Shown piece by piece: positions 4,101 to 27,664 of a DNA stretch of 64,000 nucleotides. Location: positions 434,001-498,000 of the forward strand of contig LLCB01000001.1 in NCBI GenBank assembly GCA_001414345.1, given 5' to 3'. How positions within the stretch are numbered: the stretch's first letter is position 1; each line of letters begins with the position of its first letter. The notes under the pieces are model-generated. The model was not told the DNA's origin, did not search any database, and worked only from the letters and a program-made list of their open reading frames with translations. Source of the DNA: Hymenoscyphus infarciens. Lineage: Eukaryota > Ascomycota > Leotiomycetes > Helotiales > Helotiaceae. A program made the position numbers and the translations under genes.

Positions 4101-5973
4101 GTGTATTCTAGTTGTGGCTAACACATTCCGGGCTGGAGCGCTAAATATTTGGGCATCAACTTGAGGAGCTCACAAGTGAGAGACATCACGTTGAAGGTCG
4201 AGACGAGAATATCTCTCGGCAGTCTCTCCCTTTTATTGGTCCACAATTGGTGGAGGACCTTAGGAGGGAAGGAGCGAGTGAGTACTGGCAACCCCCTCTC
4301 TCAAACTGAAAATATTGTATTTCACAATTACATGGATTCAAGATTGCAGTCATAACGAGACGATGGGTTGTGAGCAACATAATCAATTTCATCAACTAAA
4401 ATTTCCCATATCCAACGCGCGCCACGGAAACTTTAGTAAGCTTGTACCTATTTAAGTTAGCTTTCAGGTCTTGACTGACGAAAAGGATGGTCAAGATCAA
4501 AAATTCGAGCAACTTTATCAGTTCTCCAAGGTGAAATAATTGTTTCGTCAAAGATTGACTCGGAAATACAGCATATATTTGGATTCATCAGAGAAAGAGA
4601 ACAGGAGGAATAAATGTTGAAGATGCTTACCTAGACAGTCAAAAGTGCAAATGAACTACGTGATCGAATACCTGAAAATGGGCTGAAGTGTTAGCTACAA
4701 CTCATAGAATGGTAGTCGAGAATATCGTGAGATTTGATAATCAAGGGCAAATTTCAGGCTGTAGTAGGTTAGCAAGGCTCGTAGATGGGTAAAGGATTGC
4801 GACATACCTCATTAAATCAGAATTTTTGTTATACGTTCAGCGATCCGAAGATCTCAAACAGTGTGAATAAGTTTCATCATTTGATGCCAAAGAACAAGTA
4901 AATGTGAAGAAAGTTGGTTACCTAACAGAAGGTATGTTAGCTAATGTTCGGATCGATGGCAATATTCGTAGATCCCAAAGACATCATGCAATGGATCAGC
5001 TGACGAGTTCTCAACATTCACTTCTCATCCGTCTACCCTCACAAGGTTTGTACGCCTTGCTTTGATGAGAAGTAGGGGCGAGAGTGCATAGTCTGTCCGC
5101 CCGTTCGTTCAAAGTTCGTCATAGTATGCATTTGAGGGAGAGGACCGAGGGGATGGATATGTACCTAATCATTGAAGCAATGTTAGCAATATGTCCTCGA
5201 CAATGTGAACATTTGATGCAAGAGACAAGTTAAGAAGGGTCAGACAAGGCTGAAACTTTTAAAAGACAGAATCTACATGATAACTTCGGAATGAGGAATT
5301 CCTATTGTGTCAATTCATCATCACACCCAGGCGGAGCGGCCGGTGCCGGCAGTAGAAGAAGAAAAAAATGTGCGAACGAACCTTTTAAGAAATATAGACT
5401 TAGGAAACCGGTGATGTGCGACGTGAGGCGAATTAATTGCGCGACCTTTTGATGCGTTAGCAGGGAGCTTGGCATTGTTGCGTGATGAAGCCCAAGGGGA
5501 TCGAGGTAGATAACTCAGAATAATAGACAAATCCCCATTGCGGTGTAAGAGTTGGATTGTTCAATTATGTGTTTGTCTCATCATTGAAGGAGTATGTGGA
5601 GAACTGGAATTGGGGGAGCTTACCACGACGCGCAAATGCTGGCAGCAGGACCTGGTTGCCAGGCCGTTAGCTGAGTCGGTTCTCAAGAGGCATTGAGCAT
5701 TGCCTCGACGTGTCGTTGTTGTTTGTGTTGGGGTGTGTTGAGGAATCGAAGGAAAGGAAAAGTTCACGATCTTTTTCAAAGGCTTGGTGGGGAGCTCCTT
5801 AGCGCGGGACTAATCCTCATCGGGCTAAGGTTAAAAAGGTCACCAGCCACACCTGCACGTGACTTCGGCGTCACCAAAGGTGGCAAACCTCCCATGCCTC
5901 GTCCCCTCCCTCTTGAAATTACAACCTCTTTGGACTTGTCTCAATAGATAACATCTTTGAGATTTTGTCAACC
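4100..5973. other. Long intergenic region, no gene recognised
   Basis: About 1.9 kb with only short, domain-free open frames on either strand. Base composition is closer to the genic average than in the AT-rich island to its left. The last 150-200 bases, with CCTCGTCCCCTCCCTC-type pyrimidine tracts, probably form the promoter and 5' leader of the next gene. Confidence 0.4.
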
Positions 5974-7357
5974 ATGGCACTCAGCGGAGGGGTTTGGGCT
6001 CCCATAGCCCTTAGGACCTTCAAGTAAGTCTATTCAGTATGCGAAGCGCAACCTCGCAGTTTCCAATCTGTTATGACTCCCGCCATTCCGATGTCCCAGT
6101 GGTACTAACTGTCACAATAGATACGCCTTCAAGAAGACTTCGAATCTTCTGAAAGCTCGACTTTCCAAAGTATCACAGCCATTAAATCACGAACTTCAAC
6201 CGATTCTTGTGCGAGCAACTCCTCGTCAGCCAATTCATCCTACTGCACTGCTTCGACAAAACAAGGGAAGATGGTATACAACACACAGCACTATCAATGC
6301 ATCCATTCGCCGATTCATGAGCAGTGGCCCACAATACGCTCCCAAATATAACCGCGCCTCATTCCCTTCGTCTGCGACTGCCAGAGCTGTCGGCCGATTG
6401 ACTACTCGGGCCCCATTTGCTTCAACCTTGCGACCCAACCTAACGGGAGGTGCCCTTCCTCGATCCGCAGGTGGTTATAGTTTAGGAAATGGAGGACGCA
6501 CCGGAGCTCGTTATTTTTCACACACACCTGCAGCCCCGGCTCACGTCATGAACGACGTCTCAATCGCAATTCGCGCTTTCTTTCTGTCAGGAAACAAGGC
6601 TCAGTATGATGGAACGACTCCACTAGGAGAGAAAAGATATCGTACTGTTTCGAACCTACAAGCAGAAACTGGACGTAAGATGCGATCGATCCCTAAACAC
6701 ACTCCAGGTTCATACATCGACTTTCAAGTCAACCCCACCATCACAGCACTCACCCCGCTTGGCAAAATGTTCTCAGCCGGCTCTACGATGGAAATCTCCA
6801 CTCCTCATTTGAACACGGAAGGCTTTCTGGATGTCCTTTCCGTTGATTTCGCTCGCGCTTTGAAGGATCTTGCGGCTACTTTGGGCGATTTGAAGCGACT
6901 CTCATCTCTTGGAGATTTACCTATAACATTAGAAGAGAAGTCCACCCTTCGAGTTCGATTTCCAGGATGCGACGCTGAAACCGCCGAGTGTCTTTGTGAC
7001 GAAGTTGGTGTCCAAAGAGGTATGATCTATCAAGACCAAGATTTTGATCAAAGTGTAGGAGGCAATATGGCTTTAATGTTTCCATTTGCCTCTACTTCCG
7101 AGAAGACTTTATCCTCCCCGGGGGGCTCTTTGCGATCACAGACTGGTCTCGATTTATTCGATGACAATGAAAGCATAGATGAAATCATTATGCAAAATCC
7201 ATGGCTCGAAGGATACGAGAGCATGGAGTCATCTAGCGAGCATGAATCAACTTATTTCAGCAAGCCTGGAGAATTACAAAACTCTTCCTCTGATTTTGAG
7301 GGCTTGGAAGGTATCTACCGATTTATTGAACAGTGCGACGATGCGCGTCGGAGATGA
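5974..7357 (+). CDS. Conserved ascomycete protein of unclear function (possibly the one often labelled casein kinase II beta 2 subunit)
   Basis: Predicted exons are 5974-6023 and 6121-7357 (intron with GTAAGT donor and AATAG acceptor), giving 428 residues. The N-terminus is basic and amphipathic (MALSGGVWAPIALRTFKYAF), with further arginine-rich, serine-rich sequence to about residue 120, which would suit a mitochondrial presequence. A more structured middle part (about 155-320) is followed by an acidic, serine-rich tail. I have a weak memory that orthologs carry the database name casein kinase II beta 2 subunit, but the paired CPxxC zinc finger of true CK2 beta is not visible, so that name should not be taken as function. 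The start at 5974 is chosen because it precedes a clean intron and gives the continuous conserved-looking N-terminus. Confidence 0.75.
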
Positions 7358-8079: not shown

Positions 8080-10308
8080 TTACTTTTTACAACAATCAGC
8101 CTCACCACCAGCAACCACCAACTTTGACATCTTGTCCGCAGCATCAAGCACCTTGCTCTTGCTCGCGATTTGAGAAGGGGTGCTGCAATAACTTGGTGGA
8201 ACATCCAATGCCGGATTTCTGACAAAGAAGTTTCTTGGTCGAAGTAAAAGTGACATTGGCTCGGCGGGCATTATTGGGAAGTCTTCCGGTGCGGGGAAAT
8301 GTGTGATACCAAAAGTGTGCCACAAAACAACGTCGGTGTTGTCAATAGACGCATCACCGTCGGCAATCCACTCCGGAATTCCCCGCGACGGCTCACCAGA
8401 TGTCTGGGGGACGTGGCGACCAGCTGGGTATAGTTGCTCGTCATCATCTGAGAATCGTTAGTGATATTCTGGAACATTGACAAGATTGCAACTTACATTG
8501 TGTGACATGAACAGCGTGTCTAGCAAAACCAGCTCGCTTCCAAACCAGAGATCCTTCCTTGGGAAGCAATCCAGGCACCTCTCTGCTGACAAGCTTATAA
8601 CTTACCGGCTTGTGACTGTGTGGGTTGAGTTTATTGGTGTTGCACATATCCCAAGTTCGAGAGGTAGCACCATTGTAGTCACTTGTGGCCTCCTTCACTT
8701 TGGTGTACTTGGTCCTTGCCGCATAAAAGGCGTTACCATGTGGGTTCTCTTTGCTTCCTACAGCGCCAGCTCCTGGAGTTGCGTCGACTTGGAAGATGGT
8801 GTTATTTGGCCCATCAATATTTGGATCGATTCGCAAGCAGAAGAGATGTTGATGGTTGTGTGCATTTACTCCCGGGTAAACTTCAGTGCCCCAACCCTTG
8901 GTATCCTCGCCTGGGTTCATGGCATAGGTGTTCAAGATACCTGTAAGCTTGATCTCCAGCTGAACAGTACCGTCCTGGTGGAAGATCCAGTATACACAGT
9001 ACTCGTAGTTGGCAGCTGTGAATATGTGGGAGATGATGAGCTTGCGTCCTCTGGTTACGATGCATGAATCGTCTCTGAAATCGGTATGCTTGAACAAGAT
9101 TCCTGCATCTTCTTCGTGAATGCAGATGGCGTTCTTGATGGTAGTACTACCTCCTGCGCGGTTGACGAATGCTGCATCCATGTAATGAATGGCGCCCTTG
9201 CAATCACAGCCTAGAGAAAGACTGTTTGTCATGTATCCCCCACCATATTCTCCGAGATCGAATGCATGTTTTCTCTGATGTGGGTGTTCTGGGTTGCCAT
9301 AAGGAACCACCATCTCAGCAAGGGAGAGTCTGTAAAATATTGGTCGAACCGTTCCCTTGTCGTTGTATGTAATGTTATTGAGCACAATTCCCTCCTTGTA
9401 ATTGAATCCGACGTGAACTTTCCAGTTTTGCCAATCAATAACTCGTCCCTCGACCTTGAACGAAACTCCCTCAGGTTGTGTAATATTGATGGGCTTAATA
9501 TCCGTTCGGTATCCTCCCTCCTTCTCGATTGCATCAACGTGGTAATTGTTGGGCTTTGCCTTGTTCACAGGCCGGCGAACTTCTGGGATATCGATGTGAA
9601 TGATTTCCTGCTTTCCAGCATCGAAAATTGGGCAGAAATCAAGAGGGAAGGAGTATTGACTGTCGTCCGCGTGTGGTCGATAGTACATGAGTGCTTGCTG
9701 TAATCGGACATCGGAGCCGAATCGGTGGTCATAACCAATTGTCCATGCTGCAATAGTTAGAACGAGCCTTGTTTGAAATTCCCGAGAACTTGAACAGCTT
9801 ACGATCACAGTAGACTTTGTGCATATCTTCTGCAGGTACACCACTGATCACACATTGCTCGATAACTTTGGGGTCTTTTCGGCAGACGTGCTCAACGATT
9901 TGCAAATCTTCCATTGTGATCTGCCAACGAGTTAGTAAGAAGCTGGTGATACCAAATTGTGCTATATAAACCCACCAAAGGCTGGACACCATCCAGAGAC
10001 TCCCACTTGATGAGTTTTCCAGTCTGCAGGTCAACCCATCCGTCTACTACCTTTCCGCCAGGCGCAATGACAACGACATCTGCGATCCGGACTGGTAGAG
10101 GTAACGATTGGTTCTCAAGCCATTTCAACATCTCCTTCTTCGGGGGTTCCTTGAGGGTGATGGCATTGTAATGAAGCTTGCCATGTTCCTTTCGGATTAT
10201 CGAAACCGCAGACTCGATTTCGGCATTGGTGAGGGGATCGAAAGGATGAGGGGGAGGAGTGTTGCCGGTGAAATGTTGGGTGACGGACTTGAGTCTGTCG
10301 AGAGCCAT
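8080..10308 (-). CDS. Copper/topaquinone-dependent primary amine oxidase
   Basis: Predicted exons in transcript order are 10308-9976, 9920-9803, 9747-8497 and 8447-8080, giving 689 residues, the usual length for fungal copper amine oxidases. The enzyme oxidises primary amines to aldehydes with release of ammonia and hydrogen peroxide. Family hallmarks are present: the YCDPWTIGYD block (about 147-156, rebuilt across an intron), the catalytic-base aspartate in FDLGEYGGG (D314), the cofactor tyrosine in the NYEY motif (Y398, which becomes topaquinone), the copper histidine pair in HNHQH (H449/H451), and the last copper histidine in the HTFGITHFP block of the final exon. N2/N3 domains lie before residue 230. 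No signal peptide is seen, and the C-terminus (CCKK) is not a standard peroxisomal PTS1. All three introns are 49-55 bp with canonical borders. In fungi such enzymes let amines serve as nitrogen source. Confidence 0.95.
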
Positions 10309-11536
10309 CTTGAGGTATGGATTGCAATTCGGAAAGTGGTGTTTGAAGAGGGGAATTGGATATGATGGTTAATAGGAGAGGAGGAGGTCAGCAGAGATAG
10401 ATATATAGATATATAGATATAGCAAAGGGGAGAGGGGGACTTGGTGTATCAATTGGGATAAGAGACAACCGCAACGATAAAGTGGGATAAAAGCGACGTC
10501 GACTCAATTCATTCTGTGAAGCTTTCAATGAGTCTACCTTACAGGAAACAGCTTCCATTTGGCGCCGCTTCCAGAGCAGTGTCACGGTCAAGCTTCGATG
10601 CTGTGTGTGGGAGATGGTCGGGTTGGCTGGATAAGGAGCTGATAAGCTGGGCCAGGTGCGAGACGGGACTTTTTCTTTGCATTGGGTCTAGCGCAGTCCG
10701 GGTTCTCCACGTTGTCCGCTTCAAGTATTACAATCCATCAGATACGAGAGGGAAAGAAGATATAGGTAATCCATTTCTATTCCAGGTCTGTGATGTTTAA
10801 ATTCCCGAATTTCTCAAACTGTATGAGTAACGTAAGTCTTACTATAAAGTTGGTTGGGGAAAAGGGAGAGATGAGGAGGTGGAAGGTGGGAACGAGGATG
10901 GACAGCGATGGTTTGGATCAAATCGGGTTTGGACTTGGAGAAGTGGGTGGTTGAAGGTTAGGCGGTTTTTGGTAGATGCTAGAGTGAAGGACAAGGTCCC
11001 TTTATAATGAGAGGACTGAGAAGTGTGCTGGGAAATTACTTCTTGATGATGAGGATGATGAGATGGTTGTGAGGAGAGAAGGGGTTTATTTAATGCCTAT
11101 TTTGTCTAGAATTGAGGGGATATAAGTTGGGATTGCTGGTATGGACTGTGAGTTATTTAGCCTTACTACGTACCAATCGAGATGACGGACAGGAAAAGAG
11201 GGATTTTATGATTGTTTAGTCATTAGAGAAGTCATACAAGTAAATTGCCATTTGCCGCTTGAAAGTTAAGGTTGTCGAGGTACGATCTTTGTGTAACTTG
11301 AGCTTGAAGAATACCCAGTAAGCAATTGAGAGCCACGTAAGCCAACAATCATTTGGGGGCCAAAAAGAATCACGTGTAAGCGGACTGCGCTCTACTTGGA
11401 GACTGTTCAAAGAACTCTCCGACTTAACTGTTTTTTATTGGGCCTCGCTTACTTTGAACCGATTCGATACTTGAGGGCTACATTTTTGAACGATATCTTC
11501 AACTACCTTTGACAATTCAACACCTATTGATTTGGT
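10309..11536. other. Intergenic region between amine oxidase and the mycosporine-type block
   Basis: No gene is supported. Near the amine-oxidase start there is a purine-rich stretch with an ATAGATAT tandem run (about 10398-10421), probably part of its promoter. The right half would hold the 3' UTR of the NRPS-like gene. Confidence 0.45.
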
Positions 11537-14500
11537 TTATACCTTCGTATCAGGAGAGTAATTTTCCATCACCCAGCTCCAAATCTTACAAACAAGTACT
11601 TTATCAACAGGCCCAACTCTCTGCATCGCCTCACTCTCAAAACGAGAATTGTTTGTGCAAAAGAGAACTTCCGAGGATTGGGGATCCGTATTTTCGTAAG
11701 CTGATTTCCAAAATCCTAAGAGTCTTTTAGCTGGGTGATCCCCTTTTTCCAATGCCCGTAACCACACTGCTGGTTCTACAATGTCAAACTTTTCTGGTGC
11801 CATTTCCCGCACCCACATAAGCAGGTCATTCCATGAGGAACTTTGAGTCTGGTTGACCAAATGATATACCATACAGCCATCAGTTTGTCTTTCGTTGAGG
11901 GTAATTTCAGTGACTGCCGCTGCGGCAATATCCAATGGTAGCCAGCTCAACCTTTGGTTGAGTGCCGGTAGGCATTCGAGTTGACCAACCGTACTCAAAA
12001 TGAGTGGAAATGCTTCGCTGGTGTTCCAAATCCCATGTTCCGTATCTCCTGTAAGTTGACCAATTCGTAAAATCTTTACCCTTCCTCTCATACTCTGGTT
12101 TTGAGAAGCATTGAAGCAGATAGCTTCAGCAACCCATTTGCTTTGAGAATATCCCAGACTGCCGCCATCTGCTGGAACGTGTGATATGTGTTCTTTAACA
12201 GAAGATGAATGAGCAGAATTACGAACGCTAGCTACGCTAGAGCAAAATATAAATTTTGCTGGATAATGACATGACTCCGTAAGAGTAATAAGATTTTTAA
12301 TACCGTGGATGTGATCGGGGACGAATGATTGTAGAGGGAGTGCGAAGTTTACTGCCCATGCGGCCTAATATAATTAGAAAACACAGAATATGATCGGAGA
12401 AATAAGTTCTTACATGGATTACATGAGTAGTCTCTTGTCTAATTTCATTCAAGCTTGAAGATGAGAGTCCCAAGTCCGGTTTCCCGAGCCATGAGGCTAG
12501 ACACACGACTGTGTCGTCCGAGTCAGACAATTGAGACTTGTGTCGCTGGCGCAGGCTTTCGGAAACTCTCAATCGCGCCTCATCATCATCTGCTGCTCTT
12601 ACCAAACAGATGATTTTACGTGTGTTTGGGTCACATCGTAGAAGATCCAATACGTGGGAACCCAATGCTCCAGTTGCCCCCGTGAGTAGCTGAGAAGAGT
12701 CAACTTGTGGTAATTGACTAGATTCAAGGAGCACGTACAATTCCATGTGAAGTAGGTCTTCCAAATTTCCCCCTGTTAGGAAGAAACTCGAAATTAGAGA
12801 ATCGCTTGACGATCTCCAACATTTCACCAGACTCCATCTCGAGACCAGATGAGGTACCATCACGTAAATCAAGTATGTAACGGGAAAGCCTAGCTGGTAA
12901 GCGACATGCAGGACCTGGCAGCAAAGAACTTACCTAGCAACATTTCCACAATCGTAGACAATATTCCAAGGAAGCGAGTCTGTTCCCCAACCAAGTTTCT
13001 ACAAATCTGTCAACATCTCGATAAAGGGAGTGTGTCAATAGTGGGTTGGGCATACCCTCTGTACGATGTTCTTGATTGCGATGGCCTTCGCTGAATCAAC
13101 ACCATGATGATAAAAGTCGGATTCTTTGCCGATATCGGACTCCTCGCCTAGTGTTTCTCCAACAATACTACTAATGAGTGATACCATGTCTTCGTAGGTG
13201 TAACGCGATATATCGTGTCTCTTAAAATTGGAACGGTACAGAGTTTCGATATCTTCTGAGAATCTTTGTTCCGCTGTAATTCGATTTATGGTCCCCTTGC
13301 TGCTCCTCTCAAGTGCGGGTGAGCTTCCAGACATAATCATAAGCATATCTCTCGTTATTTTGGCGTGGGCCTCTCCCTTCGTGTTTGCATTCCGAATCAC
13401 TTCCCAAATTTCGTCCTCAGAACTAGGTTCCTTGGAACCATCTACAGGGAATACGAGAGCCCCAGGAACCTGTCTTCCATTTCCAAATACAAGGACTTCT
13501 TTGATCAACGGCGATTTGGATCTGATGGATTCTTCCATGGGAGATGGGTCGAATTTCTTCCCTGTAATCAAGGTTATCTGACTATCACTTCTGCTGTGAT
13601 ATCTCCATGCTCCCTGGATTGTCGGGTGGGCTTCAAAAAGATCGCTTGTTGCAAAAGCGCCATCACTTCTATTTCTCTTTGCCATCTGAGGCCAATTATT
13701 CGGAACAACTAGTTCAAAGAGGTTAGGAGAATTGCTCGTTTTTTCGAATTGGAGCAGGCTGTTTCTTGGTGAGGCGCGAAGATATTCCCAGTTTTTGTCT
13801 GTCTCATATGTTCGGTGAGAGGAAAGGAGAAAACCACATTCGGAAGAGCCGTACCTCGAGACGAGGTTCACACCTTCAGTAACAAAGGTGTCTCCAATGT
13901 TGGTAGGAAGTGCCGCTCCCCCAACACCGACAAGAGTCATTTCTCTAAGCATTTGCATTCCCATCGATTCTTGAGCGAGAAGCTGGAGGACATAAGGAAC
14001 ACTGGTGAAGTACTCAATCTTTTGGTGCGGTACTTGGGAGGAGACAGTGACACAAGAAATGATATTTTTGGCGGTGATTGGCACCTCAGCAGTGGGAAAA
14101 AGCCAGATGAGGGCCTTGCTTGTCCATGCTCGTAGACAATCCGTCACACCTGCGTGATATAAAGGAGTTGTTGAAAGTGTAGCAGAGGGCTGGCCATCCA
14201 GGCATGGTAAAACTGCGACAGCACCATTGTGGGTCTGTGTGATTGGCTTTGGGAGTCCACTTGAAGTTCCAGACGTATGACGAAAAAAGGCTACCTCGCT
14301 TGTTGATTGTTTGCGCAAAGGTGTATATTCTATAAATTCCTCTCTTGGTCTGGTTACTTGTCGGAGATCTTTGTTTTGAGATTGCCAAAACAATAACTGG
14401 GTTTCAAGGTGCACATCAAGCTGGGCTGTTGTGTGCGCGAGTTCAGCATGCTCCTTGTCGTGGAATAATAATGAAACATTGCATGCCTTGCACAATTGTT

Positions 14501-15030
14501 CGATGGCCGGTGGCTTACACTGAGGTCTGGTGGAGAATTAGTTGAGGAACGATTTGATATCATATGAATAACACCTCTACAAAACAGCATCAACTTACGC
14601 AATTAATAGTACAGAAACTCCAGCTCTCATGAGGCCTAGCCAGGCAAACAGAAAATCCAGTGAGCTTGAACAGAGAAGTCCAACGCATACCACCTTGTCA
14701 CCCACCACTAGTTTTTTCAATATATCTGTAAATCCTGAAGCGATTGCCAAAGATCCCGTTTGTAATTCGCCAAATGCTGCCAGGTGTCAGAATATATTTC
14801 GAGACCCTCAAAAACAACCTACTGAAAATATCGTGACCCCATTCTCTACCCTTTCTCGGAACCGGAAAAGCAACAGCCCAGTTATTTGGAACCCGCTTTG
14901 CTTGTATATCCATGAGATCATTCATGGTCTTGAACTCTGACGGTTTTCTGGAATTTATCTCGGCTGCTTCGCCTAACGTGCAGGTGAAGTAGTTCGTCAT
15001 CGGAACCGCATTTTTGATATCCGTCGACAT
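11537..15030 (-). CDS. NRPS-like carboxylate reductase: adenylation - thiolation - thioester reductase
   Basis: Seven exons in transcript order (15030-14823, 14776-14599, 14526-13056, 12998-12934, 12889-12739, 12689-12414, 12364-11537) give 1058 residues with every phase closed. The adenylation domain covers about residues 20-520; core motif A3 is FRHTSGTSSGLPKPI (about 210-224), and the later RSDSQ..TGKKFDPSPME block is typical of adenylate-forming reductases. A carrier domain follows, with phosphopantetheine serine S607 in GVDSAKA. The C-terminal half is a Rossmann thioester reductase: TGATGALG (about 694-701) and the Y855-x3-K859 pair. There is no condensation or thioesterase domain. Family knowledge: such enzymes activate a carboxylic acid with ATP, load it as thioester and release it with NADPH as aldehyde (or alcohol). 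It stands head-to-head with an aldo/keto reductase and beside three mycosporine-type enzymes, so I infer it reduces the carboxyl of an amino acid or amino-acid mycosporine. Alternatives are an aryl-acid or aminoadipate-type reductase unrelated to the neighbours. The substrate pocket cannot be read by eye. Confidence 0.93.
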
Positions 15031-15448
15031 CGTTAGGTGTTCCTTGAAAGAAAACTTTTGTTTGGAAAGTCTCAGGATGCAGCTCGGTTTTTGGGGTTAT
15101 GCAATAGGGTACAATTCAACGGCGGTTACACGACCAATGTTGAGTACGTCATGGCCGTTAAGCAGACAATTTAAGCCAAGCCCTAAATTGGCATACCACC
15201 AACAGCGCACGCATAACCTTTAATGAAGTGACGATGAAAATGTTGTTGAGTGATGATAGGCGTGATGTAGAAGATGCTTGCAATTTTCTAGCAGTTCTGA
15301 CTTCAAGATGCGTCATGGATAAAGTGGTGGCGTCAACTGTCTTACCTTACATGGCTTGAGTTCCACAACACAACCCATCAAAGCTGCGACAGTAAACGTC
15401 TGTCAAGAACCTGGATCATATTCTTGTACATACCGGAAATCCTTCATC
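15031..15448. promoter_or_regulatory. Divergent promoter between NRPS-like reductase and aldo/keto reductase
   Basis: About 420 bp separate the two start codons. A CCAAT box at 15134-15138 lies next to TACGTCA at 15145-15151 (TGACGTA on the minus strand, a bZIP/CRE-like half site). The same pair of words occurs before the ATP-grasp gene. Shared control of the two reductases is an inference from the head-to-head layout. Confidence 0.5.
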
Positions 15449-16412
15449 ATGGCCTCAAAACTTTCCATCGACGACTGTTTTGTTCTACCCAATTCCTCAG
15501 TCAAGATTCCTCGTCTCGGCTTCGGGGTCTACAAAGCAGCTGGAACAAAATGTACTGAGGCGACTCTGGCAGCACTTAAGGCAGGCTATCGACATATAGA
15601 CTCAGCCGAGTAGGATATGACTCTTAACTTTTCGTCTGACCGACCTGCTGACTGCTTTTGAACTTTGTAGGGTATACGGCAATGAAAAAGAGGTGGGGGA
15701 TGCGGTGCGACAATCACAGCTAAAACGCTCTGAAGTTTTTATCACAACCAAGATTTACTTGGCAGCTGGTAGTGTGGAGAGCACGTACCAGAAGCTTCTG
15801 GAAAGTGTAAAGAACATCGATGGAGTTGATGGATATGTCGATTTGTTCCTTATCCACAACGCTAGCGTAGGGGAAAAGAATAGAAAGGAAATCTATTTGG
15901 CTATGGAAAAACTCCTTGATGAAGGAAAGACTAGGAGCATTGGGGTTAGCAACTGGGGAATTGGACATCTTGAGGAGCTCAAGACATACGCAAAGGTTTT
16001 TCCACCGCATGTTATTCAAATCGAGGTAAGTCATCTAAAATCCGAGAAAAATTATACTATCTAAATGATCGGGTAGCTTCACCCCTTTTGCCAGCAACGA
16101 GAAGTGGTGAATTATTGCCAGAAAATTGGGATTGTTGTAGAAGCATATTGCCCTATTGTTCGCAACCAAAAAGCTGAGGATCCAACTTTGAAAGAAGTGG
16201 CAAGAAAGCACGGAAAGACTGTTTCTCAAGTCTTGATTCGGTATTGTTTGCAGAAAAACTGGGTACCTCTACCAAAGAGCGAAACACCATCAAGAATTAC
16301 CGAAAACGCGGATGTCTTTGATTTCGACATGACAAAGAATGATATGTCGAAGATCGATGGACTGGACCAGGGGAAGGCTGGGGCTCTTGTACTAGCCGTA
16401 GACAACGAATAG
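15449..16412 (+). CDS. Aldo/keto reductase
   Basis: Predicted exons 15449-15609, 15671-16025 and 16077-16412 give 283 residues, normal for NADPH-dependent AKRs. The catalytic tetrad can be followed: Asp in GYRHIDSAE, Tyr in VYGNE, Lys in TTKIYL, and His in LFLIHNA. The C-terminal cofactor-binding block (LPKSETPSRITENADVFDF) is also present. Members reduce aldehydes and ketones to alcohols with NADPH. The gene begins about 420 bp from the NRPS-like reductase and points away from it, so it may take the aldehyde released by that enzyme to an alcohol; this partner role is inferred. An in-frame ATG at 15356 exists, but the start at 15449 gives the usual short N-terminus before the first strand. 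No targeting signal is seen. General AKR housekeeping detoxification is the main alternative. Confidence 0.92.
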
Positions 16413-16904
16413 GCCTTTGAACGTTGTCACTTTGTTGCTCGCCAGCGTTGCGTTTTCTGTTCTCGTTGGGGGGAGGGAGGAACAGAACAACTTCACTTTG
16501 CGGAATGTAGTATAGAGCTGAAAAGAAAGCTGCGAAGATAGGTGAATTCGAATTCAACTTCTTATAACTTCTGTCAGTTTAACAGAAAGTGCTGTTAGTT
16601 TAAAAGAAAGTGCTGTCAGACTTTTTCAACTCAACGGTAGTCTTCGAACTTTGCAGTACTAGGGGGGATAATGCGAGGATGACAGGCATAATAAAGATAT
16701 GACTGCTGGTGGGACATCGGCGATTTTACTTTTCCATGTTGTGCAGCTATATCAGACCATTGATTGAAAGAAAGGCTATGTTGACAAACTCGAGAAGCTT
16801 ATTGCTTGTGAAATAAAAAAGAGAGAAACCACTTTGATTTTGGATTTGGTTCATAGTAAAGAAAGAATAAGCATAACAAGCTCCTTCCCTCCACAGTAGC
16901 AAAT
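16413..16904. other. Convergent intergenic region inside the block
   Basis: This lies between the 3' ends of the aldo/keto reductase and the ATP-grasp gene. A short direct repeat of the type AACAGAAAGTGCTGT / TAAAAGAAAGTGCTGT is seen at about 16580-16618. No gene is present. Confidence 0.5.
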
Positions 16905-18383
16905 TTAACATTCATAAACCCTTGAAGTACTGACGTTGCAGAGACTCCACCACCTGCCTGTCACAATGCGCACCAATAAGGAAAGGGGCCAGTATCCGAT
17001 ATACAACCACCACGTTGGCCATGGGTCCCAAACTTCATATGTTCCGTCTTTCCAATATAGCAAATGCTCCCTCAACTCCCCCCACTTGGACAAAACCTCC
17101 GAAAAGCTGATCTTGAAAGCCATGAATTCCAGCAACGGAAGAATGAGGCAAGTCACGATTTCATGAGCGACCCAATACTGCCCTGAGCCCAGTGGCTTTG
17201 CAATAAGAGGCGTCCCGGAACCATCATCTCCATCCAGCACGCTCAAGTAGGCCTCCACCATCGTTTCCCTTTGATCTCTAAATAGAATGATAGCAGTATG
17301 AGTTCTGGGATTGCATTCAATGGGCCGCAATCTCTGAGTCCTCTTCTCCCCAGTCCCCACCTCATCTGCGAAAAAGTCGAGAGAGAAATGTCCTGTCAGT
17401 CCTTCTCCCATCTTCTGTACATATGTCTCCGTATATTCCAACATTCCCTTGAACAATTCCGACTCTGGCGATAAAGCTTGATATCTCATCAACAAGTCCG
17501 TTGAAGGACAGGCTGTAAATGCTCTGATTTTTCCACGCACAATCAATGCATGTGTACAGTATTCCTCCCCGCTAATGAATTCCTGTAACACAAATGGATG
17601 TTCGATACTAGGTCGTAAACTTGAGATATATTCGCTAGTGGACGCTTCGGAAGTCGAGGGAAGAAGTCGCATTTCAGTTCGGACGGAATCCTCGATGCCG
17701 ACACACTTCATGATATATCGGGTTTTGCTTGTGAAGGGGCTGAGTGGACGTAATACGCGCATGGCATCTTCAGTGGAAGTAACTGCATGTGTATCAGGAA
17801 CCGGGAGTCCTATTTTCCGCGTATTTTCGAGAAACGAATCTTTCTCATGCAAGATTTTGGTTGTATCAATGTTGAACTGAACGGCTTTGCATTTTGTCTC
17901 TTTTTCCAAACATTCTGCTGTCGTCGCATCTTCAAGGGGTGTAGCGCTTTTGGAGCAACTGATATACAAGTCCACATTCTCAGCCTTCACAATCTCGAGT
18001 ATTTTCTGGGTTGATGTTTTGGTGGAATTGCGCCCTGGGAGTCTATAAAATTTGGACAGACACTTGGAGAACCTTGCACATACTGGAATCCCAAAGGGTT
18101 CCAAATCAGCTCCAATTACTTTGTGACCTGACAAGTAAAACGAGCGGGCTATCGTGAGTCCCTTGCTCATTCCAACACCCGTTACGAGCACTGTACGGCG
18201 GCGAAATGTTGGTGAAGCTTGTTTCTCGCGTATCTTGGTGGACTGGAGGTCGTTGTCTCGTGAGAGGATTGAGCTGAAAAATGCAAAAAGAGTACATAAT
18301 GGCGCAAAAAGAATACAGAGGGCTATTAAAGAGAAGCTCTGCAAAAAGTGCAAATAAACCGGAGAAGACGCATTGAGAGGCAT
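16905..18383 (-). CDS. ATP-grasp ligase, MysC-like (mycosporine synthesis)
   Basis: A single exon encodes 492 residues. An N-terminal hydrophobic segment (about 10-40) suggests a membrane anchor. A preATP-grasp Rossmann-like part follows (TGVGMSKGLTIARSF, about 68-82), then the ATP-grasp fold with the HPFVLQEFISGEEYCTH strand (about 262-278) and the metal-binding RPIECNPRTHTA block (about 353-364; Glu356 and Asn358 as ligands). The C-terminal region (about 405-490) has two further tryptophan-rich hydrophobic stretches. ATP-grasp enzymes join a carboxylate or phosphorylated enol to an amine; in mycosporine synthesis MysC couples 4-deoxygadusol with an amino acid. I assign that role because an O-methyltransferase and a dehydroquinate-synthase-like cyclase lie directly upstream. 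The amino acid used cannot be read. Membrane anchoring is unlike the soluble cyanobacterial enzyme and would place product formation at a membrane. Another ATP-grasp amide ligase function is possible but less fitting to the context. Confidence 0.88.
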   Translation of the reverse strand: MPLNASSPVYLHFLQSFSLIALCILFAPLCTLFAFFSSILSRDNDLQSTKIREKQASPTFRRRTVLVTGVGMSKGLTIARSFYLSGHKVIGADLEPFGIPVCARFSKCLSKFYRLPGRNSTKTSTQKILEIVKAENVDLYISCSKSATPLEDATTAECLEKETKCKAVQFNIDTTKILHEKDSFLENTRKIGLPVPDTHAVTSTEDAMRVLRPLSPFTSKTRYIMKCVGIEDSVRTEMRLLPSTSEASTSEYISSLRPSIEHPFVLQEFISGEEYCTHALIVRGKIRAFTACPSTDLLMRYQALSPESELFKGMLEYTETYVQKMGEGLTGHFSLDFFADEVGTGEKRTQRLRPIECNPRTHTAIILFRDQRETMVEAYLSVLDGDDGSGTPLIAKPLGSGQYWVAHEIVTCLILPLLEFMAFKISFSEVLSKWGELREHLLYWKDGTYEVWDPWPTWWLYIGYWPLSLLVRIVTGRWWSLCNVSTSRVYEC

Positions 18384-19022
18384 GATTTCGATGCAGAAAT
18401 AGTCAGAAGTTGGAAGCTTCCAACTTTTGGAGTGATATATATAATGATATTTAGAGAGGGGCTTGTCCTACGCATAGCTTTCGCACTGACGTAACCAATC
18501 ACCTCGAGGGCGTCATCATGACATTTTAGCCATCAGGACTCTTTAGCCGCTTGCCGCTGCTGATTTTGTCATGCAGTAATAACGCCATCATGACACCTTT
18601 AGATAGAGTGTTCACTTCGAGTGTATCGGCTCACCACATGGGTTAGGTAGTGTGATCAAGTGAGGCGCGCATCGAATATCCGACGTGTTCTATTAGTCCT
18701 GTCCTAGGAAGGCACTGTTCTAGTAGTCCTTCTTATTGGTGTGATATACTAGTCTTGCTGTCATCTCCCTTCGTTTTGCACTGGAGTCACTGACGCGTAC
18801 ACGTGATACGTATGGAGAGCCGCCAGATATTCGCTTATTTTTACATGTCAAAAGTAGGGAAATAAAGAGGTGGCGATTAATTGAGGATTTCGTCATTCTT
18901 CGAGTTCTGACGAGGAAAATATAGACAATAAACAAAATCACAGAAGGTCACAAAGTTTCTTGCTCGATGGTTGGTCATATCTCTTGGTTTTATCACTGCC
19001 TTCCAACACCGGGTTCTGGCAT
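18384..19022. promoter_or_regulatory. Upstream region of the ATP-grasp gene
   Basis: This holds the promoter of the ATP-grasp gene and the 3' end of the O-methyltransferase transcript. TGACGTA (18487-18493) lies next to CCAAT (18495-18499), as in the divergent promoter at 15.1 kb. CATCATGACA-type words occur twice nearby (about 18514 and 18587). No gene is present. Confidence 0.45.
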
Positions 19023-20021
19023 CAGTTACCACCATCCGTTTCGTCCCCCACACAAACAGTGATCTCAACACCATCCTGTTCTGAATTAGCTTCCCATAAT
19101 AAAAATATAATGGCAAATAAAACTCACAGGCTCTCCAGAGGGCTCAAAACTTTCTCTCAACTCGCTTTTGTACTTGAGGTTGGGATTACCCTTGTGGCTG
19201 TCTTCCTCTCCCCGAGAAAATGCGTCCCTCTTCTCCTCGACACTACTTCGTACATATTTCAAGTACGGTGGGTTGCCAGGATAAATAACATTATCGGCTA
19301 CGAGTACTGTACCCTCGCTAATCAAACCCAAAGACTCGCAAATTTTGAGATCTTGTGTATACAGCGGCTTGTGATGATCAAGAAAAATCATGTCCAGTTT
19401 GTTGCGCTGCGTTTGAGTGCCAAACAAAGTCTTAATACTTTCACTGCTTTGCCCTAAAATCACTTCGACAACATCATCTAGGCCTGCAAGTGCCACCTAA
19501 TATCGGGGTCAGTGTTGCCTTTTCAAGGAGTACGCCTAGGAAGAAAACAAGTAGTAAGAAGGAAACAAGGGGGGGAAATAACACGGAGAATTCCCACCAC
19601 CTACCAAAGTTTTGATATTCTTAGCGAATTTAGGATTCATTTCCAGACAAAAGTACTTTCCCCCACCAGCCGCTCGCCTCATTGCGTCGGAAAAAAGCAA
19701 TGTGGAGTATCCACAGTACCCTCCTAATTCCAGCATGATTTTCGGTTTGGTATTTTGGATGACTTCGGTTACTATCTTGCCCTTGTCTTCACCGATATTC
19801 ATAAGGTACTTCGTTCGTGCGAATTCGTCGATGGCTCCGAGAATCTTTGAAGGAGAGCCATGTAGTCCAGGCTGTTTCTGAATGAAGGCCACGAGTTCTT
19901 CCTCTCGTCCGTCATCATACTGTGAAAGCGTCAGTTGAATCATGGGCGCATTTCATTGCCTGCTCACATAGATGCCTTCGTCCTTGGCTTTATAAGCTTT
20001 GCTTTCATCAAAAGAAGGCAT
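19023..20021 (-). CDS. SAM-dependent O-methyltransferase, MysB-like
   Basis: Exons in transcript order (20021-19968, 19919-19605, 19496-19128, 19076-19023) give 263 residues with all phases closed. This is a class I methyltransferase of the catechol-O-methyltransferase type: SAM-binding motif I MLELGGYCGYST (about 80-91), the acidic end of strand 2 in YFCLEMN, and the metal/active-site block MIFLDHHKPLY (about 159-169). In mycosporine synthesis the equivalent enzyme methylates demethyl-4-deoxygadusol to 4-deoxygadusol. The gene starts about 520 bp from the cyclase gene, pointing away from it, which fits co-regulation. The last exon is only 54 bp and the first 54 bp; both are supported by frame and GT-AG borders. 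A general catechol or phenol methyltransferase would look alike, so the pathway role rests mostly on the neighbours. Confidence 0.9.
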
Positions 20022-20540
20022 ATTGAAGAATTCCCTTTGTTGTGCCTGTAGATATCTCTGAGTGTGTAACTTACACGTTCGAGAAAGTTTAGATATGAAG
20101 GTTGGTCACACGAAACATGTCATTGGTAATTTAGCTTTGGGAGCGGCCCAGGACCGGCTGGCTATCCAACCCCTAGTATTCGTATCGCAATCATGATTTC
20201 ATGTTGCAAGTGCATGAGAAATCCATCGCTTTTCATACGGGAAAGTATGCTGATGTCATTGACTCCCGATGTTGATGTCATAGTAGCTCATTGTTCAAGC
20301 TGTCAAGAACACACCACGGGCAATTCGAATTTTAACCGAGAGCCTTTGGACCAATCAGCTTCGATAGCCGGGAAACGCGCGAATGTCCGGTTTGATCGAA
20401 GGTAGGTTGCGGGAGCATAGTGTAAGTTGATATGATCATGAACAGAATCGCTCTCCCTAGAAATAGAGACTCATATCCTTCTTTCCTTTTACTTCCTGTC
20501 TACCTTTTTTTATATACTTCTCAGATCCCATTCCTCCACC
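20022..20540. promoter_or_regulatory. Divergent promoter between O-methyltransferase and sugar phosphate cyclase
   Basis: About 520 bp lie between the two start codons. TGATGTCA occurs twice (20251-20258 and 20273-20280), 22 bp apart, close to two helical turns, and CCAAT lies at 20351-20355. A pyrimidine-rich leader (about 20475-20540) precedes the cyclase ATG. The bZIP reading of the TGATGTCA words is an inference. Confidence 0.5.
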
Positions 20541-22208
20541 ATGTCAGACCTCAAAGCATCAGTCGCCGAGACAAAAACCACTTCGGGTCACAACGGCTTC
20601 CACGTAGAAGGCTACGAGAAGATCGAATATGACTTCACATTCATTGATGGAGTCTTCAACATCGAGAACAACAACTTGGCTTCCTGCTACAAGAAATGGG
20701 GAAGATGCTTGGCCGTCACTGACATGAATATCCATGATGTTTATGGCAAGAAAATGGAGGCATACTTCAAACACCATGATATCAAACTTACTATTCATCA
20801 AACCAAGATTGGAGAGAAGGCCAAGACGATGCCGACTCTGTTGAGCATTGTTGATTCGATGAATGAGTTCGGAATTTTCCGCAAGGTTCGTACTATGACC
20901 ATACAGGTCAGCCTAAAAGCCTCTTACTTATAGTCTTGTAGGAGCCAGTTTTGGTCGTTGGTGGAGGACTAGTGACAGATGTTGCTGGGTGAGTTTCCAA
21001 TGCCCCTTTATCACTTCCCTCGTTGACATGGAAAAGGTTCGCTTGCGCTGCATACAAGCGAAATACAAACTTCATTCGAGTTCCCACCACCGTCATTGGA
21101 CTTATCGATGCATCTGTCTCCATCAAAGTTGCCGTCAACTATGGCAACTACAAGAATAGACTGGGTGCTTATCACGCCCCAATTCATACCTTCTTGGATT
21201 TCACCTTTTTGCGAACGCTTCCCACAGCCCAAATTCGAAATGGCTTTGCTGAGTTGATCAAGATTTCAACTTGTGCCCACCTGGACACTTTCAACCTTTT
21301 GGACAAATACGTGAGCATCCCGCATCCTGCTCGGTTCATCAATCTTGCTAATTGGAAGACAGTGCGAGCAACTCATCGAGAAATCATTCGGCCGGGCTGA
21401 CGGCTCATCCCAAGAACTTATCAACGCCGCCGATGCCATCAACCGCGAAGGTATCCACGTCATGTTGAAACTCGAAACTCCAAATCTGCACGAGATTGAT
21501 CTCGATCGAGTAATCGCCTACGGTCACACCTGGTCACCACTCCATGAGCTCGTCCCGGAGACCCCACTTCGTCACGGCCATGCTATCAGTATCGATATGG
21601 CATATTCTGCCACCTTGGCCAACAACCGAAAACTCATTACCGACGAGGAACACCGACGTCTACTCAATCTCTTCTCCCGAGCTGGTCTCTCAATGGATCA
21701 TCATCAATTCAATGAGGAAATCTTAGAGAAAGCCACCAGTGCAATCTTGAGAACCCGAGATGGACAACTCCGCGCTGCCGTACCAAACCCAATTGGCTCT
21801 TGCACCTTCTTGAACGATGTTTCAGCAAAGGAGATGAATGAGGCATTGAGAAGACACAAGGAGCTCATGAAGGAGTATCCCAGAAATGGAGAGGGTTTGG
21901 AGGCCTATGTCGATGCCTCCGACACTGGATACACTGAAAACGCGAAGTTGGAAGAGGAGGTAATTTTGGAGAAGGCAGCAAAGAAGGCGGGTAATATGAA
22001 TGGAAGCAACGGACACACAAACGGACACTCCAACGGAGCCAACGGGCATTCCAACGGAACCAATGGACACTCCAACGGCATCAAGGGGCACTCTAACGGA
22101 ACCAATGGACACTCTAACGGTACTAATGGACACGCAAATGGGGAAAAGAAGGTTACCAATGGTAATAGCATCGAAACCAACCCGATCAAGAACGGAAACG
22201 GTGCCTAA
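20541..22208 (+). CDS. Dehydroquinate synthase-like sugar phosphate cyclase (demethyl-4-deoxygadusol synthase, MysA-like)
   Basis: Exons 20541-20885, 20942-20988, 21037-21310 and 21363-22208 give 503 residues. The fold is that of dehydroquinate synthase: NAD-binding [12 protein letters not shown] (about 120-131), and zinc ligands expected at E203 in GFAELIK, H277 in AYGHTWSP and H293/H295 in LRHGHAIS. The [18 protein letters not shown] block is typical of the sedoheptulose 7-phosphate cyclases rather than of AroB. Family reaction: sedoheptulose 7-phosphate to demethyl-4-deoxygadusol (DDGS) or to 2-epi-5-epi-valiolone (EEVS). DDGS is favoured because the methyltransferase and ATP-grasp partners are next door, but EEVS cannot be excluded without alignment. 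The third exon uses an AAG acceptor (21034-21036). The C-terminal 70 residues, after about 432, are a low-complexity Asn-Gly-His-Ser repeat not needed for the fold. Confidence 0.92.
22002..22142 (+). repeat. Minisatellite coding an Asn-Gly-His-Ser tail in the cyclase gene
   Basis: About six 21-bp units encode heptapeptides of the form GHSNGTN (residues about 436-482), with A, I or T and N or K varying. The unit is in frame, so copy-number changes in multiples of 21 bp keep the reading frame. It follows the end of the catalytic fold. Confidence 0.9.
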
Positions 22209-22430: not shown

Positions 22431-24696
22431 TCAAATCAAAGTAATGATATATCGATCCGGATCATCAGAACCAAGCAAAGTCCCGGAGTACGCCTCAGCC
22501 ATTCTCGCTCCATATTCTTTCAAAACCCGTAAAAATGGTTCGTAGGTTTCCTCGGTGTTCGCAAGTTTCCCTGGGAAATTAACCTTATCTTTGTAAAAGT
22601 TGAAGCTTCCAATCCTAATAAATTCACCTTTGGTGACAGTGGCCCGAAGGACAATACCTTCAACCATTATCTCTGAAATTAGAGCGCCGTCTTTGCCGAG
22701 CATACCACTACCAGTTCTGTCGCTAAGAATTGGCAAAAGATGGACGCGGTCATTCTCCTCAACTTCATTTAGACAGTCCATCTGAATAGAAAACTCTTCC
22801 TTGTCACCAATTTCAAGCGAAACGATGGCGGCTTCTGGCTTATCGGGATTCAGACGTACCAAGCCAGTTGCCAAAGCAGAACATGCAAGGCGGATGACTC
22901 CACTGGTAACCTGCCCAAAAGGATCATTGCCATGTTTTCTTGTGCTAGCATCCAAAATGCGAATGTGCTTAGTTTCGAGAATTCCTTGCTGTGTGCTATG
23001 CCATATCACCTTTCCGTCGATGGAAGCCCAGCTCCAAGTGGGAGCGCGAAAACTTGTTCGCTTCAAAGGCTGGACATCCCACAAACGCCAGCACAACTGG
23101 CCTTCTAGGTTATTTCGCCACAGTCCAGCAAGGTATTGATCCCCTGTTTCGTTGTATCCAAGTCTGGCAACTCCAGAAAGTGCTGGCAGTTTATCCTTTC
23201 CAAAAGTCAAGTTCGCAGCAGAGTAAATTTGCACGATTTGAGGCCAATGCCATTCAAATTTTCCCTTTCGACGAACGATGGGACAGACTAGCTCTCTTGG
23301 AAATCCCTCTGGCAAGTGCTCAGATGCAATCAGAGTCTTGCATTCCCAGAAAGCACCTCGGTCGCTAAAGTGGATTGTTCGGGGTGGCAGAATTTTCTCC
23401 TGTAGTGCCCAGGCTCTTCTGCCTAAATGGGTTTCGAAAGTCGACAAGTTATAATTTTCGGAATTCCGAAAATCCTGCACTCTCTGTTTCCCACCATCGG
23501 TAATTCTAGCACGGAGCCCACCGCTGAAGTCAGGGGCAGTAACCAAACAACCTTCGGTACTGTTACGCGCAGAGGAAGCCGCTATCGTGATGGTTGAGCC
23601 GCCATAAACTGAGGTCATTAGAGCTGACTCCTTTTCCCAATCATCTTCATCATCCTGAATGATGCATAGGGTATCAATCCATATGAAATCAAGACCCAGT
23701 CGTTTTGTGATGGTTAAAGCCTCGGTAAAGGTTTTTGGGAGTCGATCGGCCGGTATTTCCTTCAGAAACGAATCCAAGTTCTTCGACGTGAGCTTGAAAA
23801 CATCTTGTGCGCCCCAACTATGTGATAACGTGGCATATCGCTGCCCTTTGGGAATCTCTGAGTTCAGAACCAATCGAGGTGATTCGCCGGTTATCGAAAT
23901 CAACCTCGTTGGTAGGATGAAATCATTGTTGACTTTGCAGAGTTCGTGGCTTTCGGAACAGGTAGACAGCCAGTTGCTGGCGGTATCCAATACATCAAGG
24001 GGCTCATCATAGCAGTCAGCTGGCAATTGTCAGTAAACTGCGACCGCTTTGCTGGCAGGATTTTCACGCACCTGATCTTGGAAGAAAAGCCGAACTGAAC
24101 TTTCCCTCTAAAGCAATGCCGGAATTACAGGAAGTGCAGATCTTTCCAGGGAGGTTCAACCATAAAATTTGGATTGGATTAGTCCCCCAGTTCTGAATGG
24201 ACAAAGAGAGCGTAGAATCCTCGCCTAGTTGGTATAGGCGGGATTCAACCTTTCGAGAGGTTTCCAGAAGTTTGCAATCCTTGAGGGTTTGTAGCATGAA
24301 GGCACAGAATCTGCACCCAGCTCGAGTAGAGGCTTCCAATTCAAAAGTGCTGATGGAGCGAGCGACTGTCTTTTCCCATCCCTTTTCAACTGGGTTGGGT
24401 TTCGAATCATGCTTTCTGTTTGATGAATCGCCGAGTGTTGGCCAGTTGTTGAACAATTCCTGACATTGGATGCAGAACCCTTTCCCAACAATCGATTTTG
24501 GTGTCGATTCTTGTATTCGTTGTTCAACAAAATCAAGATCCAGTTCATCAGCTTCCACGGCCTTGATGGGGCTGGAAGTCAGAAACAGGTCGTTGGCATC
24601 CAACGCTGTATATTCCTCGAACCATTGTCTCAAATCCATCTCTATGGGTTGGTTCGAAGTAGAGCTTTTGTTTTGAGAAACTGGAAAAGTGGCCAT
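22431..24696 (-). CDS. HET-domain protein (heterokaryon-incompatibility type)
   Basis: Exons in transcript order 24696-24072 and 24019-22431 give 737 residues. The N-terminal part has a cysteine-containing region (FCIQCQELF, CRFCAFML) seen before the HET domain in many family members. The HET domain covers about residues 270-415, with YATLSHSWG at its start, then LGLDFIWIDTLCIIQDD and YGGSTITIAASSA. The long C-terminal part includes APTWSWASIDG, also typical. HET proteins act in non-self recognition and can trigger cell death; the role of this one is unknown. An in-frame ATG at 24834 would add a hydrophobic stretch; I prefer 24696 (MATFPVSQNK). It is tail-to-tail with the cyclase gene, about 220 bp apart, and forms the right border of the mycosporine-type block. 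Confidence 0.92.
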
Positions 24697-25867: not shown

Positions 25868-27664
25868 ATGGTCGATTGCCCAATCTGTGGTAAAGGCGTG
25901 AAAGGAAAAGAGTAGGCATTCTCCGACTTTATTCTCCCATCTGAGAGGGCTGAGACACTATTTCCTCCTCAGACTACTATGTTCCTCCCTCGGATATCCT
26001 TCTAGAAATGGCATACTGACTCCGAGATCAACCACAGTATTAATAATCATATCGACTCTGGCTGTGAGGATTTCCTTGACACCAACTCCAACACCCCGCC
26101 ACTCACCCAGCAAAACCCATCATCAACACAGAAGCCACCGAGCACGCAGAAACAAACCCCTTCTCTATCGAGCTTCTTCCAAACGCCTGCGGCAAAACGA
26201 GCAGCATCATATCCCACCCCCAAAATAGAAGCCAGCCCGAGTCTTACCTTCCAGCCCAAAGCGCCTCGCAATGGCACGAATATATCGACAACCCCAAGCC
26301 AACCCCAACGAAAACGGTCCTTCGAGGACGGTGTTCCAGATACAAATTCAAAGGAGACAGAAGAGTCGAAGAGCAGCGTAGAAGATCCTCCTGCAAAAAA
26401 ACCCAAGACCAATGCCTTTCAGAAAGCACAACCACTCGCAGAGCGGATGCGCCCTCGATCCCTCGACGAATGTATCGGACAAGATTTGGTAGGCCCGCAT
26501 GGTGTTCTGCGAGGCTTGATTGAAATGGACCGCATTCCCTCCATGATCTTGTGGGGAGGTGCTGGAACGGGAAAAACTACAATTGCGCGATGCATAGCAG
26601 CCATGGTTGGAAGTCGATTTGTCGAGATCAATTCAACTAGCTCTGGCGTTGCTGAGTGTAAGAAGATATTCGCAGAGGCCAGAGGGGAACTGGGATTGAC
26701 GGGGCGAAAAACTTTGTTATTTTGTGACGAAATCCATCGCTTCTCAAAAGCACAACAAGACTGTTTCCTAGGGCCTGTAGAGAGCGGACAAATCACGTTA
26801 ATTGGGGCCACGACAGAGAACCCCTCATTCAAAGTTCAGAACGCTTTGCTGTCACGCTGTCGGACATTTACGCTTCAAAAACTGACGGACGATGATATAT
26901 TCCAAATCTTAGAACGGGCGCTCAAGTTAGACGGGGGAAAAGTGCCAAAAGACCTCATAGACTCAGAATTTCTCAAATACCTTGCGGCCTTCTCAGATGG
27001 AGATGCTCGCACATCCCTCAACCTCCTCGAATTAGCAATGTCTCTATCCACAAGGCCCTCGATCACAAAAGAAGAAATTAAATCATCCCTCACGAAGACA
27101 CTTGTGTACGATAGAGCGGGAGATCAACATTACGATACCATATCCGCTTTTCACAAATCCGTTCGAGGAAGCGATCCAGACGCGGCTCTCTATTATCTCG
27201 CTCGAATGCTTCAGTCTGGCGAAGATCCACTTTACGTTGCTAGAAGAATGGTGGTAATTGCCTCTGAAGATGTTGGCCTTGCGGACAATAGCCTTCTCAC
27301 CCTCGCAACTAGCACATATACGGCAGCTGAGAAGATAGGCATGCCAGAGTGTCGTATATCGCTAGCACATTGCACAGTGGCGTTGTGTTTAGCTCCCAAG
27401 AGCACACGAGCATATCGAGGGCTAAATAACGCTTACGCTGCCTTGCGTGAACCAGGGGTAGCAAGCTTGCCCATTCCTATACATCTGCGGAATGCTCCGA
27501 CTAAATTAATGAAAGAATTGGGGTACGGCGACCAATACAAATACAATCCGAATTACAAGGAAGGGAAGGTTGTGCAAGAATACTTGCCAGATCACTTGCA
27601 AGGACGGACTTTTCTGGAAGAAAGGGATTTAGGGACAGAAATTGATCCTGGAGCTTGGAATTGA
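25868..27664 (+). CDS. MGS1: Mgs1/WRNIP1-type AAA+ ATPase with UBZ zinc finger
   Basis: Exons 25868-25911 and 26038-27664 give 556 residues. The N-terminus is a UBZ4-type ubiquitin-binding finger, with C4, C7, H19 and C24, rebuilt across the single intron. A disordered linker (about 25-140) contains TPSLSSFF (about 55-62), which resembles a PCNA-interacting box lacking the leading Gln, and basic KKPK stretches suitable for nuclear import. The AAA+ core has Walker A GGAGTGKTT (about 188-196), Walker B LLFCDEIH and sensor GATTENPSF, followed by the RarA/MgsA-type tetramerisation region (RMVVIASEDVGLADN). The family acts at stalled replication forks in DNA damage tolerance, with PCNA and polymerase delta. 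The gene is a conserved housekeeping gene and marks the right boundary of the accessory block. Confidence 0.95.

Follow-up and report, generated by a model that had tools for sequence, protein, structure and literature searches.

The mysA-B-C(-D/E) gene clusters of cyanobacteria and actinobacteria are among the closest described relatives of the locus studied here, a 10.7-kb block of five genes in Hymenoscyphus infarciens. The block lies in a 64,000-nucleotide stretch (hereafter the window) on contig 1 of the 65.6 Mb genome assembly of 742 contigs. Like the bacterial clusters, it encodes relatives of desmethyl-4-deoxygadusol synthase (DDGS), an O-methyltransferase (OMT) and an ATP-grasp ligase. 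It also contains genes for an aldo/keto reductase (AKR) and for an enzyme with adenylation, carrier and reductase domains (A-T-R) that resembles a nonribosomal peptide synthetase (NRPS). In cyanobacteria, the NRPS-like partner is MysE, which carries a thioesterase. Amino-alcohol mycosporines are characteristic of fungi.

The three core activities are also common to the block and the mycosporine gene cluster of Phaffia rhodozyma, in which DDGS, OMT and the ATP-grasp enzyme ATPG are needed for mycosporines and the reported product is mycosporine-glutaminol. Unlike the block, the Phaffia cluster is described as three genes, and the accessible part of the paper names no enzyme or source for glutaminol (PMC10057719). 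Most Hypoxylaceae genomes are reported to contain NRPS-like clusters, termed 'mycosporine-like', that were linked to mycosporines by the authors and are mentioned right after A-T-R enzymes; the available text differs from the present case in giving neither the reaction, the domain layout nor an AKR (PMC8403587). Co-clustering of an NRPS-like gene with mycosporine genes is thus already known, without a reaction, in a third class, the Sordariomycetes. The A-T-R layout is that of fungal carboxylate reductases (CARs), which form seven clades, with clades IV and VII given in the accessible text as having no known function (PMC9605436). Reduced mycosporines are reported, in the part of the source available, from Botrytis, Ascochyta pisi, Cladosporium herbarum, Septoria nodorum, Pyronema and others (PMC4665425). 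No enzyme assigned to the carboxyl-to-alcohol step was found in the accessible parts of open PMC text, subscription papers being outside this scope; this agrees with a preliminary description of the window, which knew of none. The Arthrobotrys NRPS-like gene g306 was set aside, its adenylation domain being annotated as NRPS type in the text available (PMC10373296).

Core genes and the A-T-R enzyme

The block belongs to the mysA-B-C type of mycosporine cluster. All five families named in the preliminary description were confirmed as intact genes at the place given there, and its assignment of the block to mycosporines holds for each of the three core genes. The step leading to amino-alcohol sunscreens has no enzyme assigned in the text searched, and the A-T-R makes a good candidate for it. 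The chance that it reduces the side-chain carboxyl of a mycosporine appears slightly better than even, reduction after ligation being slightly likelier.

The product of the DDGS gene contains the Pfam domains DHQ_synthase and DHQS_C. In comparison with PDB sequences it scored 488 bits with 5tpr, labelled 3-dehydroquinate synthase in the match table, 231 bits with the cyclase 4p53 and at most 106 bits with dehydroquinate synthases. We take 5tpr to be the Anabaena DDGS and 4p53 to be an EEVS, and the protein is identified as a DDGS-type sugar phosphate cyclase. The only other DHQ_synthase match in the genome lies in an open frame of 1611 aa, which is presumably AROM. The closest relatives among the matches listed are from Hymenoscyphus albidus (86% identity) and Botrytis (81-85%); bacterial relatives share 52-60%, and no DDGS relative was found in a scan of viral contigs. 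The protein ends in a low-complexity NGHSNG tail (21990-22208), and NG-rich tails are also seen in a consensus built from 14 DDGS proteins of fungi.

The OMT gene, divergent from DDGS, encodes a Methyltransf_3 protein, which places an OMT beside the cyclase. The ligase matched no Pfam family at E<=0.001. It was identified as a MysC-type ATP-grasp enzyme by the NCBIfam model PRK06849 (181 bits, below the model's own cut-off of 406) and by alignment with nine ligases encoded near bacterial DDGS, with which it shares 27-34% identity and the invariant motifs Q.F..G.EYCTH and IECNPRTH. The whole genome contains a single match for it. Its hydrophobic N-terminus (18260-18383), which is perhaps a membrane anchor, lies outside the part aligned to the nine bacterial segments, these having been cut at their match.

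A prokaryotic scan with one genome per species yielded 80 DDGS loci, mostly from Actinomycetota, for which up to 10 kb were fetched on either side. Within these stretches a ligase was matched at 79 loci and an OMT at 74, while an AKR was matched at none. The A-T-R is no regular neighbour in bacteria, the R domain being matched at 5/80 loci and the A domain at 0/80; the latter is a weak negative, as locus L055, with a full-length CAR-like open reading frame (ORF), was found by the R domain only. The loci with R-domain matches are L055 (noted stretches 3649-7140 and 9989-11251), L061 and L066 and, near the locus edge, L042 and L063. At three Rhodococcoides loci the match is 3-4 kb upstream, and L055 shows an OYE-like ORF in between (this name and that of the bacterial CAR-like ORF were assigned by eye).

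The A-T-R enzyme contains the Pfam domains AMP-binding, AMP-binding_C_3, PP-binding and NAD_binding_4. The residues K539, S607 of the carrier, S825/S826, Y855 and K859 are conserved, and we assume their catalytic roles from known enzymes. The adenylation, carrier and NAD_binding_4 reductase domains with these residues assign the protein to the carboxylate-reductase type. It lacks a thioesterase domain, having a reductase instead, and so departs from the A-T-thioesterase layout of cyanobacterial MysE. The best-scoring other place in the genome is 34% identical, and the A4 motif, PLYHGG-AD--RAW, differs from that of the closest paralogue in the genome. One adenylation-pocket motif is kept in all 121 A-T-R sequences compared. 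In a fold search with the A-T-R model the R domain was closest to the Neurospora CAR, and substrate classes were not discriminated.

The signs that the sequence of the adenylation domain gives about the substrate are mixed. A comparison of the A-domain part with PDB sequences gave seven matches, none of them an amino-acid A domain. Where amino-acid A domains are presumed to have their amine-binding Asp, 121/121 sequences carry Gly or Ala, as read by eye in a weakly aligned region. The best NCBIfam model for the domain is TIGR01733 for amino-acid adenylation (66 bits, far below its cut-off of 317). It ranks ahead of the acyl ligase models, and this shifts the odds slightly from reduction after ligation to reduction before it.

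Linkage and joint displacement of the A-T-R and DDGS genes

Linkage was compared in the organisms present both among the best 120 of 830 A-T-R and among the best 120 of 3168 DDGS homologues. Co-location was judged by an equal size of the longest contig given per protein, plus locus tags where shown. From 28 shared organisms, five with apparently mixed assemblies (Diplocarpon rosae, Hortaea werneckii, Bipolaris sorokiniana, Cryomyces antarcticus and Boeremia exigua) were dropped, leaving 23; their assignment to Leotiomycetes, Dothideomycetes and other classes is our assumption. A-T-R and DDGS were found on equal-sized contigs in 18/23 species. The chance expectation is 0.59 for genomes of 40 Mb and 0.94 for 25 Mb, with maxima of 6 and 7, respectively, over 200,000 draws. 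When only contigs below 0.7 Mb and the five misses were counted, 10 of 15 species were linked versus 0.10 expected. Related species are non-independent draws, and the result is a conserved linkage rather than 18 separate events. In many fungi, A-T-R and DDGS are thus neighbours on a contig far more often than chance predicts, and more often than is seen for the AKR, which served as an internal control.

The shared contig measures 17 kb in Lachnellula occidentalis, 36 kb in Podosphaera aphanis, 167 kb in Phialocephala subalpina, 302 kb in Decorospora, 544 kb in Venturia inaequalis and 650 kb in Pycnora. The tags are adjacent in Claussenomyces (819 kb); they are 23 apart in Xylographa bjoerkii (126 kb), 69 in Meristemomyces (308 kb), 76 in Oleoguttula (553 kb) and 54 in Lecanora helva (602 kb). 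If tags step by ten, the distance is 25 in Neocucurbitaria and 263 in Parastagonospora. Rhexocercosporidium, Elsinoe ampelina, Coleophoma cylindrospora, Phlyctema and Cucurbitaria are also linked; Xylographa soralifera, Lambiella, Sclerophora, Pseudocyphellaria and Circinaria are not. Parastagonospora nodorum, with both genes on an equal-sized contig, is presumably the Septoria nodorum reported to produce reduced mycosporines.

The AKR behaves differently. It belongs to the Pfam family Aldo_ket_red, its best solved relative being YvgN (3f7j, 200 bits). Other AKR stretches in the genome show 31-47% identity, with the exception of a single piece of 44 residues (55%), and no second close copy was found there. 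A tree of 34 hand-picked homologues out of the 120 listed roughly tracks taxonomy, with Blumeria, Erysiphe and Aspergillus among its members. After removal of apparently mixed assemblies (Drepanopeziza, Diplocarpon coronariae, D. rosae, Exophiala dermatitidis and Elasticomyces elasticus), the AKR was co-located with A-T-R or DDGS in 3/17 species, namely 3/8 others and 0/9 comparable Leotiomycetes, where a near neighbour could be missed on the Podosphaera contigs of only about 35 kb. The three are Endocarpon pusillum (AKR EPUS_06781, DDGS EPUS_06787), Xylographa trunciseda (AKR MMC11_003337, A-T-R MMC11_003339) and Caeruleum heppii (equal-sized contig). The difference from A-T-R/DDGS linkage is significant both within the Leotiomycetes (0/9 versus 7/7, Fisher p 8.7e-5) and in all species (3/17 versus 18/23, Fisher p 2.9e-4).

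By sequence, the AKR is an orthologue of a broadly conserved and probably general enzyme that occurs also in powdery mildews and Aspergillus, and its linkage pattern suggests an old neighbourhood, not a dedicated gene. It may serve the mycosporine pathway without being dedicated to it. A dedicated role was rejected as the likeliest reading for this conserved, rarely linked orthologue. The preliminary description had proposed a dedicated arm of A-T-R and AKR and had asked for both beside the core genes in related species. The A-T-R part of this interpretation is strengthened by the linkage in comparable species; the AKR part, which fails within the Leotiomycetes, is weakened.

Phylogenetic trees were calculated from hand-picked named subsets of the 120 listed homologues plus the query, with 61 (A-T-R) and 62 (DDGS) homologues in the first trees and 33 and 32 in the constraint tests. 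The A-T-R tree is broadly taxonomic. The DDGS tree is less strictly so, with Exophiala and Fulvia together among the Dothideomycetes and Endocarpon beside lichens. In both trees the proteins of Venturia, a Dothideomycete (P0012, P0014, P0178 and P0189), separate from their class and group with or next to the Leotiomycetes. The penalty for keeping them with the other Dothideomycetes is 133.6 log units for A-T-R (quick tree; approximately unbiased test, p-AU 1e-54) and 19.5 for DDGS (careful tree; p-AU 0.019), the constrained group having been chosen after the first tree was seen and the Venturia branches being long (0.55-0.6). The DDGS group of Leotiomycetes with Venturia is weakly supported (83/61) and does not pin down the donor. 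Because both genes are displaced and both V. inaequalis genes lie on equal-sized contigs, joint transfer is the simplest reading. It lends further support to the view that A-T-R and DDGS act together.

Proposed biosynthesis and alternatives

We propose that DDGS and OMT make 4-deoxygadusol and that the ATP-grasp ligase attaches an amino acid to it, as orthology to experimentally characterized enzymes predicts. The A-T-R enzyme would activate the free alpha-carboxyl of this amino acid, most likely glutamine or glutamate, slightly more probably after its attachment than before. It would load the substrate on its own carrier domain and reduce it with NADPH to the aldehyde or directly to the alcohol, giving mycosporine-glutaminol or -glutamicol. 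It perhaps needs no helper enzyme; conversion of the aldehyde to the alcohol may fall to the AKR, on which the argument does not depend. We further suggest, tentatively and as a possibility short of an even chance, that the A-T-R is a mycosporine carboxylate reductase acting on the ligated mycosporine-amino acid and not on the free amino acid, that it gives rise to the fungal amino-alcohol mycosporines, and that it is ancestral in much of Pezizomycotina and reached the Venturia lineage from a Leotiomycete, together with the core genes. If true, the proposal would close the carboxyl-reduction step of the fungal pathway, open a route to mycosporine-glutaminol and -glutamicol by design, provide a group of fungal carboxylate reductases with a function and account for one difference between fungal and bacterial mycosporine clusters.

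The main result that speaks against a required reductase comes from Phaffia, whose DDGS, OMT and ATPG alone are reported, in the accessible text and by co-migration in high-performance liquid chromatography (HPLC), to yield mycosporine-glutaminol in S. cerevisiae (PMC10057719). Given this reductase-free set and a presumed substrate, the suggestion in the preliminary description that the block may encode a complete amino-alcohol route stays a conjecture. In an alternative order, free glutamine, glutamate or serine is the substrate of the A-T-R, and the amino alcohol then formed by an AKR is coupled to 4-deoxygadusol by the ligase. This version pairs A-T-R and AKR as the preliminary description does, and its order is the one stated for Phaffia, where the ligase incorporates glutaminol according to the part of the paper available (PMC10057719). 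Other fungal A-T-R enzymes, of clade I, reduce free amino acids (PMC9605436, accessible text), and among NCBIfam models the one for amino-acid adenylation scores highest on the A domain, though far below its cut-off. The PDB matches and the Gly or Ala at the presumed Asp position point away from a free amino acid, and we regard reduction before ligation as rather unlikely.

Reduction of the mycosporine carboxyl has further to be weighed against an unrelated acid as substrate, with proximity to the mycosporine genes as old shared synteny. The tag distances of 23 to 263 genes in lichens and Dothideomycetes agree with such a history, and the conserved AKR, too, shows long-standing linkage in Endocarpon, Xylographa trunciseda and Caeruleum. 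Adjacency in Claussenomyces, the short contigs that hold both genes in Lachnellula and in the powdery mildew Podosphaera, the joint displacement in Venturia and the much lower linkage of the AKR control argue against it and leave this explanation improbable. It is very improbable that the A-T-R is the fungal counterpart of MysE, placing another amino acid on the ring. The position in a mycosporine cluster, the A-T start of the protein and the role of MysE as NRPS-like partner in cyanobacteria would fit; the reductase in place of a thioesterase does not, nor does the mono-substitution of the fungal mycosporines described in the available text (PMC4665425).

Gene models and surroundings of the cluster

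All five gene models (Table 1) have a Met start, a single terminal stop and only GT..AG introns, which were placed manually. The ATP-grasp and AKR genes are convergent. The two divergent regions and the region upstream of the ligase contain no common promoter word beyond chance (lowest p 0.1).

Table 1. Features of the mycosporine cluster and other genes in the window.
Feature	Coordinates	Strand	Exons	Product
A-T-R carboxylate-reductase-type (NRPS-like) gene	11537-15030	-	7: 15030-14823, 14776-14599, 14526-13056, 12998-12934, 12889-12739, 12689-12414, 12364-11537	1058 aa
A-T-R/AKR divergent intergenic region (418 bp)	15031-15448			
AKR gene	15449-16412	+	3: 15449-15609, 15671-16025, 16077-16412	283 aa
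ATP-grasp ligase gene, MysC type	16905-18383	-	1	492 aa
OMT gene, MysB type	19022-20021	-	4: 20021-19968, 19919-19605, 19496-19128, 19075-19022	263 aa
OMT/DDGS divergent intergenic region (519 bp)	20022-20540			
DDGS gene, MysA type	20541-22208	+	4: 20541-20885, 20942-20988, 21037-21310, 21363-22208	503 aa
Copper amine oxidase gene	8444-9847	-		
HET-domain protein gene	22431-24029	-		
MgsA-type AAA ATPase gene	26006-27664	+		
Terpene synthase gene	28374-29759	-		
PAP2-family gene	808-2277	+		
Pyridoxal-dependent decarboxylase gene	39738-40823	+		
Phosphomannose isomerase gene	56743-57954	+		

The gene directly adjoining the cluster encodes a Cu_amine_oxid protein (438 bits) and probably extends both ways from the matched segment. 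It was weighed as a cluster member and not adopted. The other flank contains genes for the HET-domain protein, the ATPase and the terpene synthase (Terpene_syn_C_2), and the last three genes of Table 1 lie farther away in the window.

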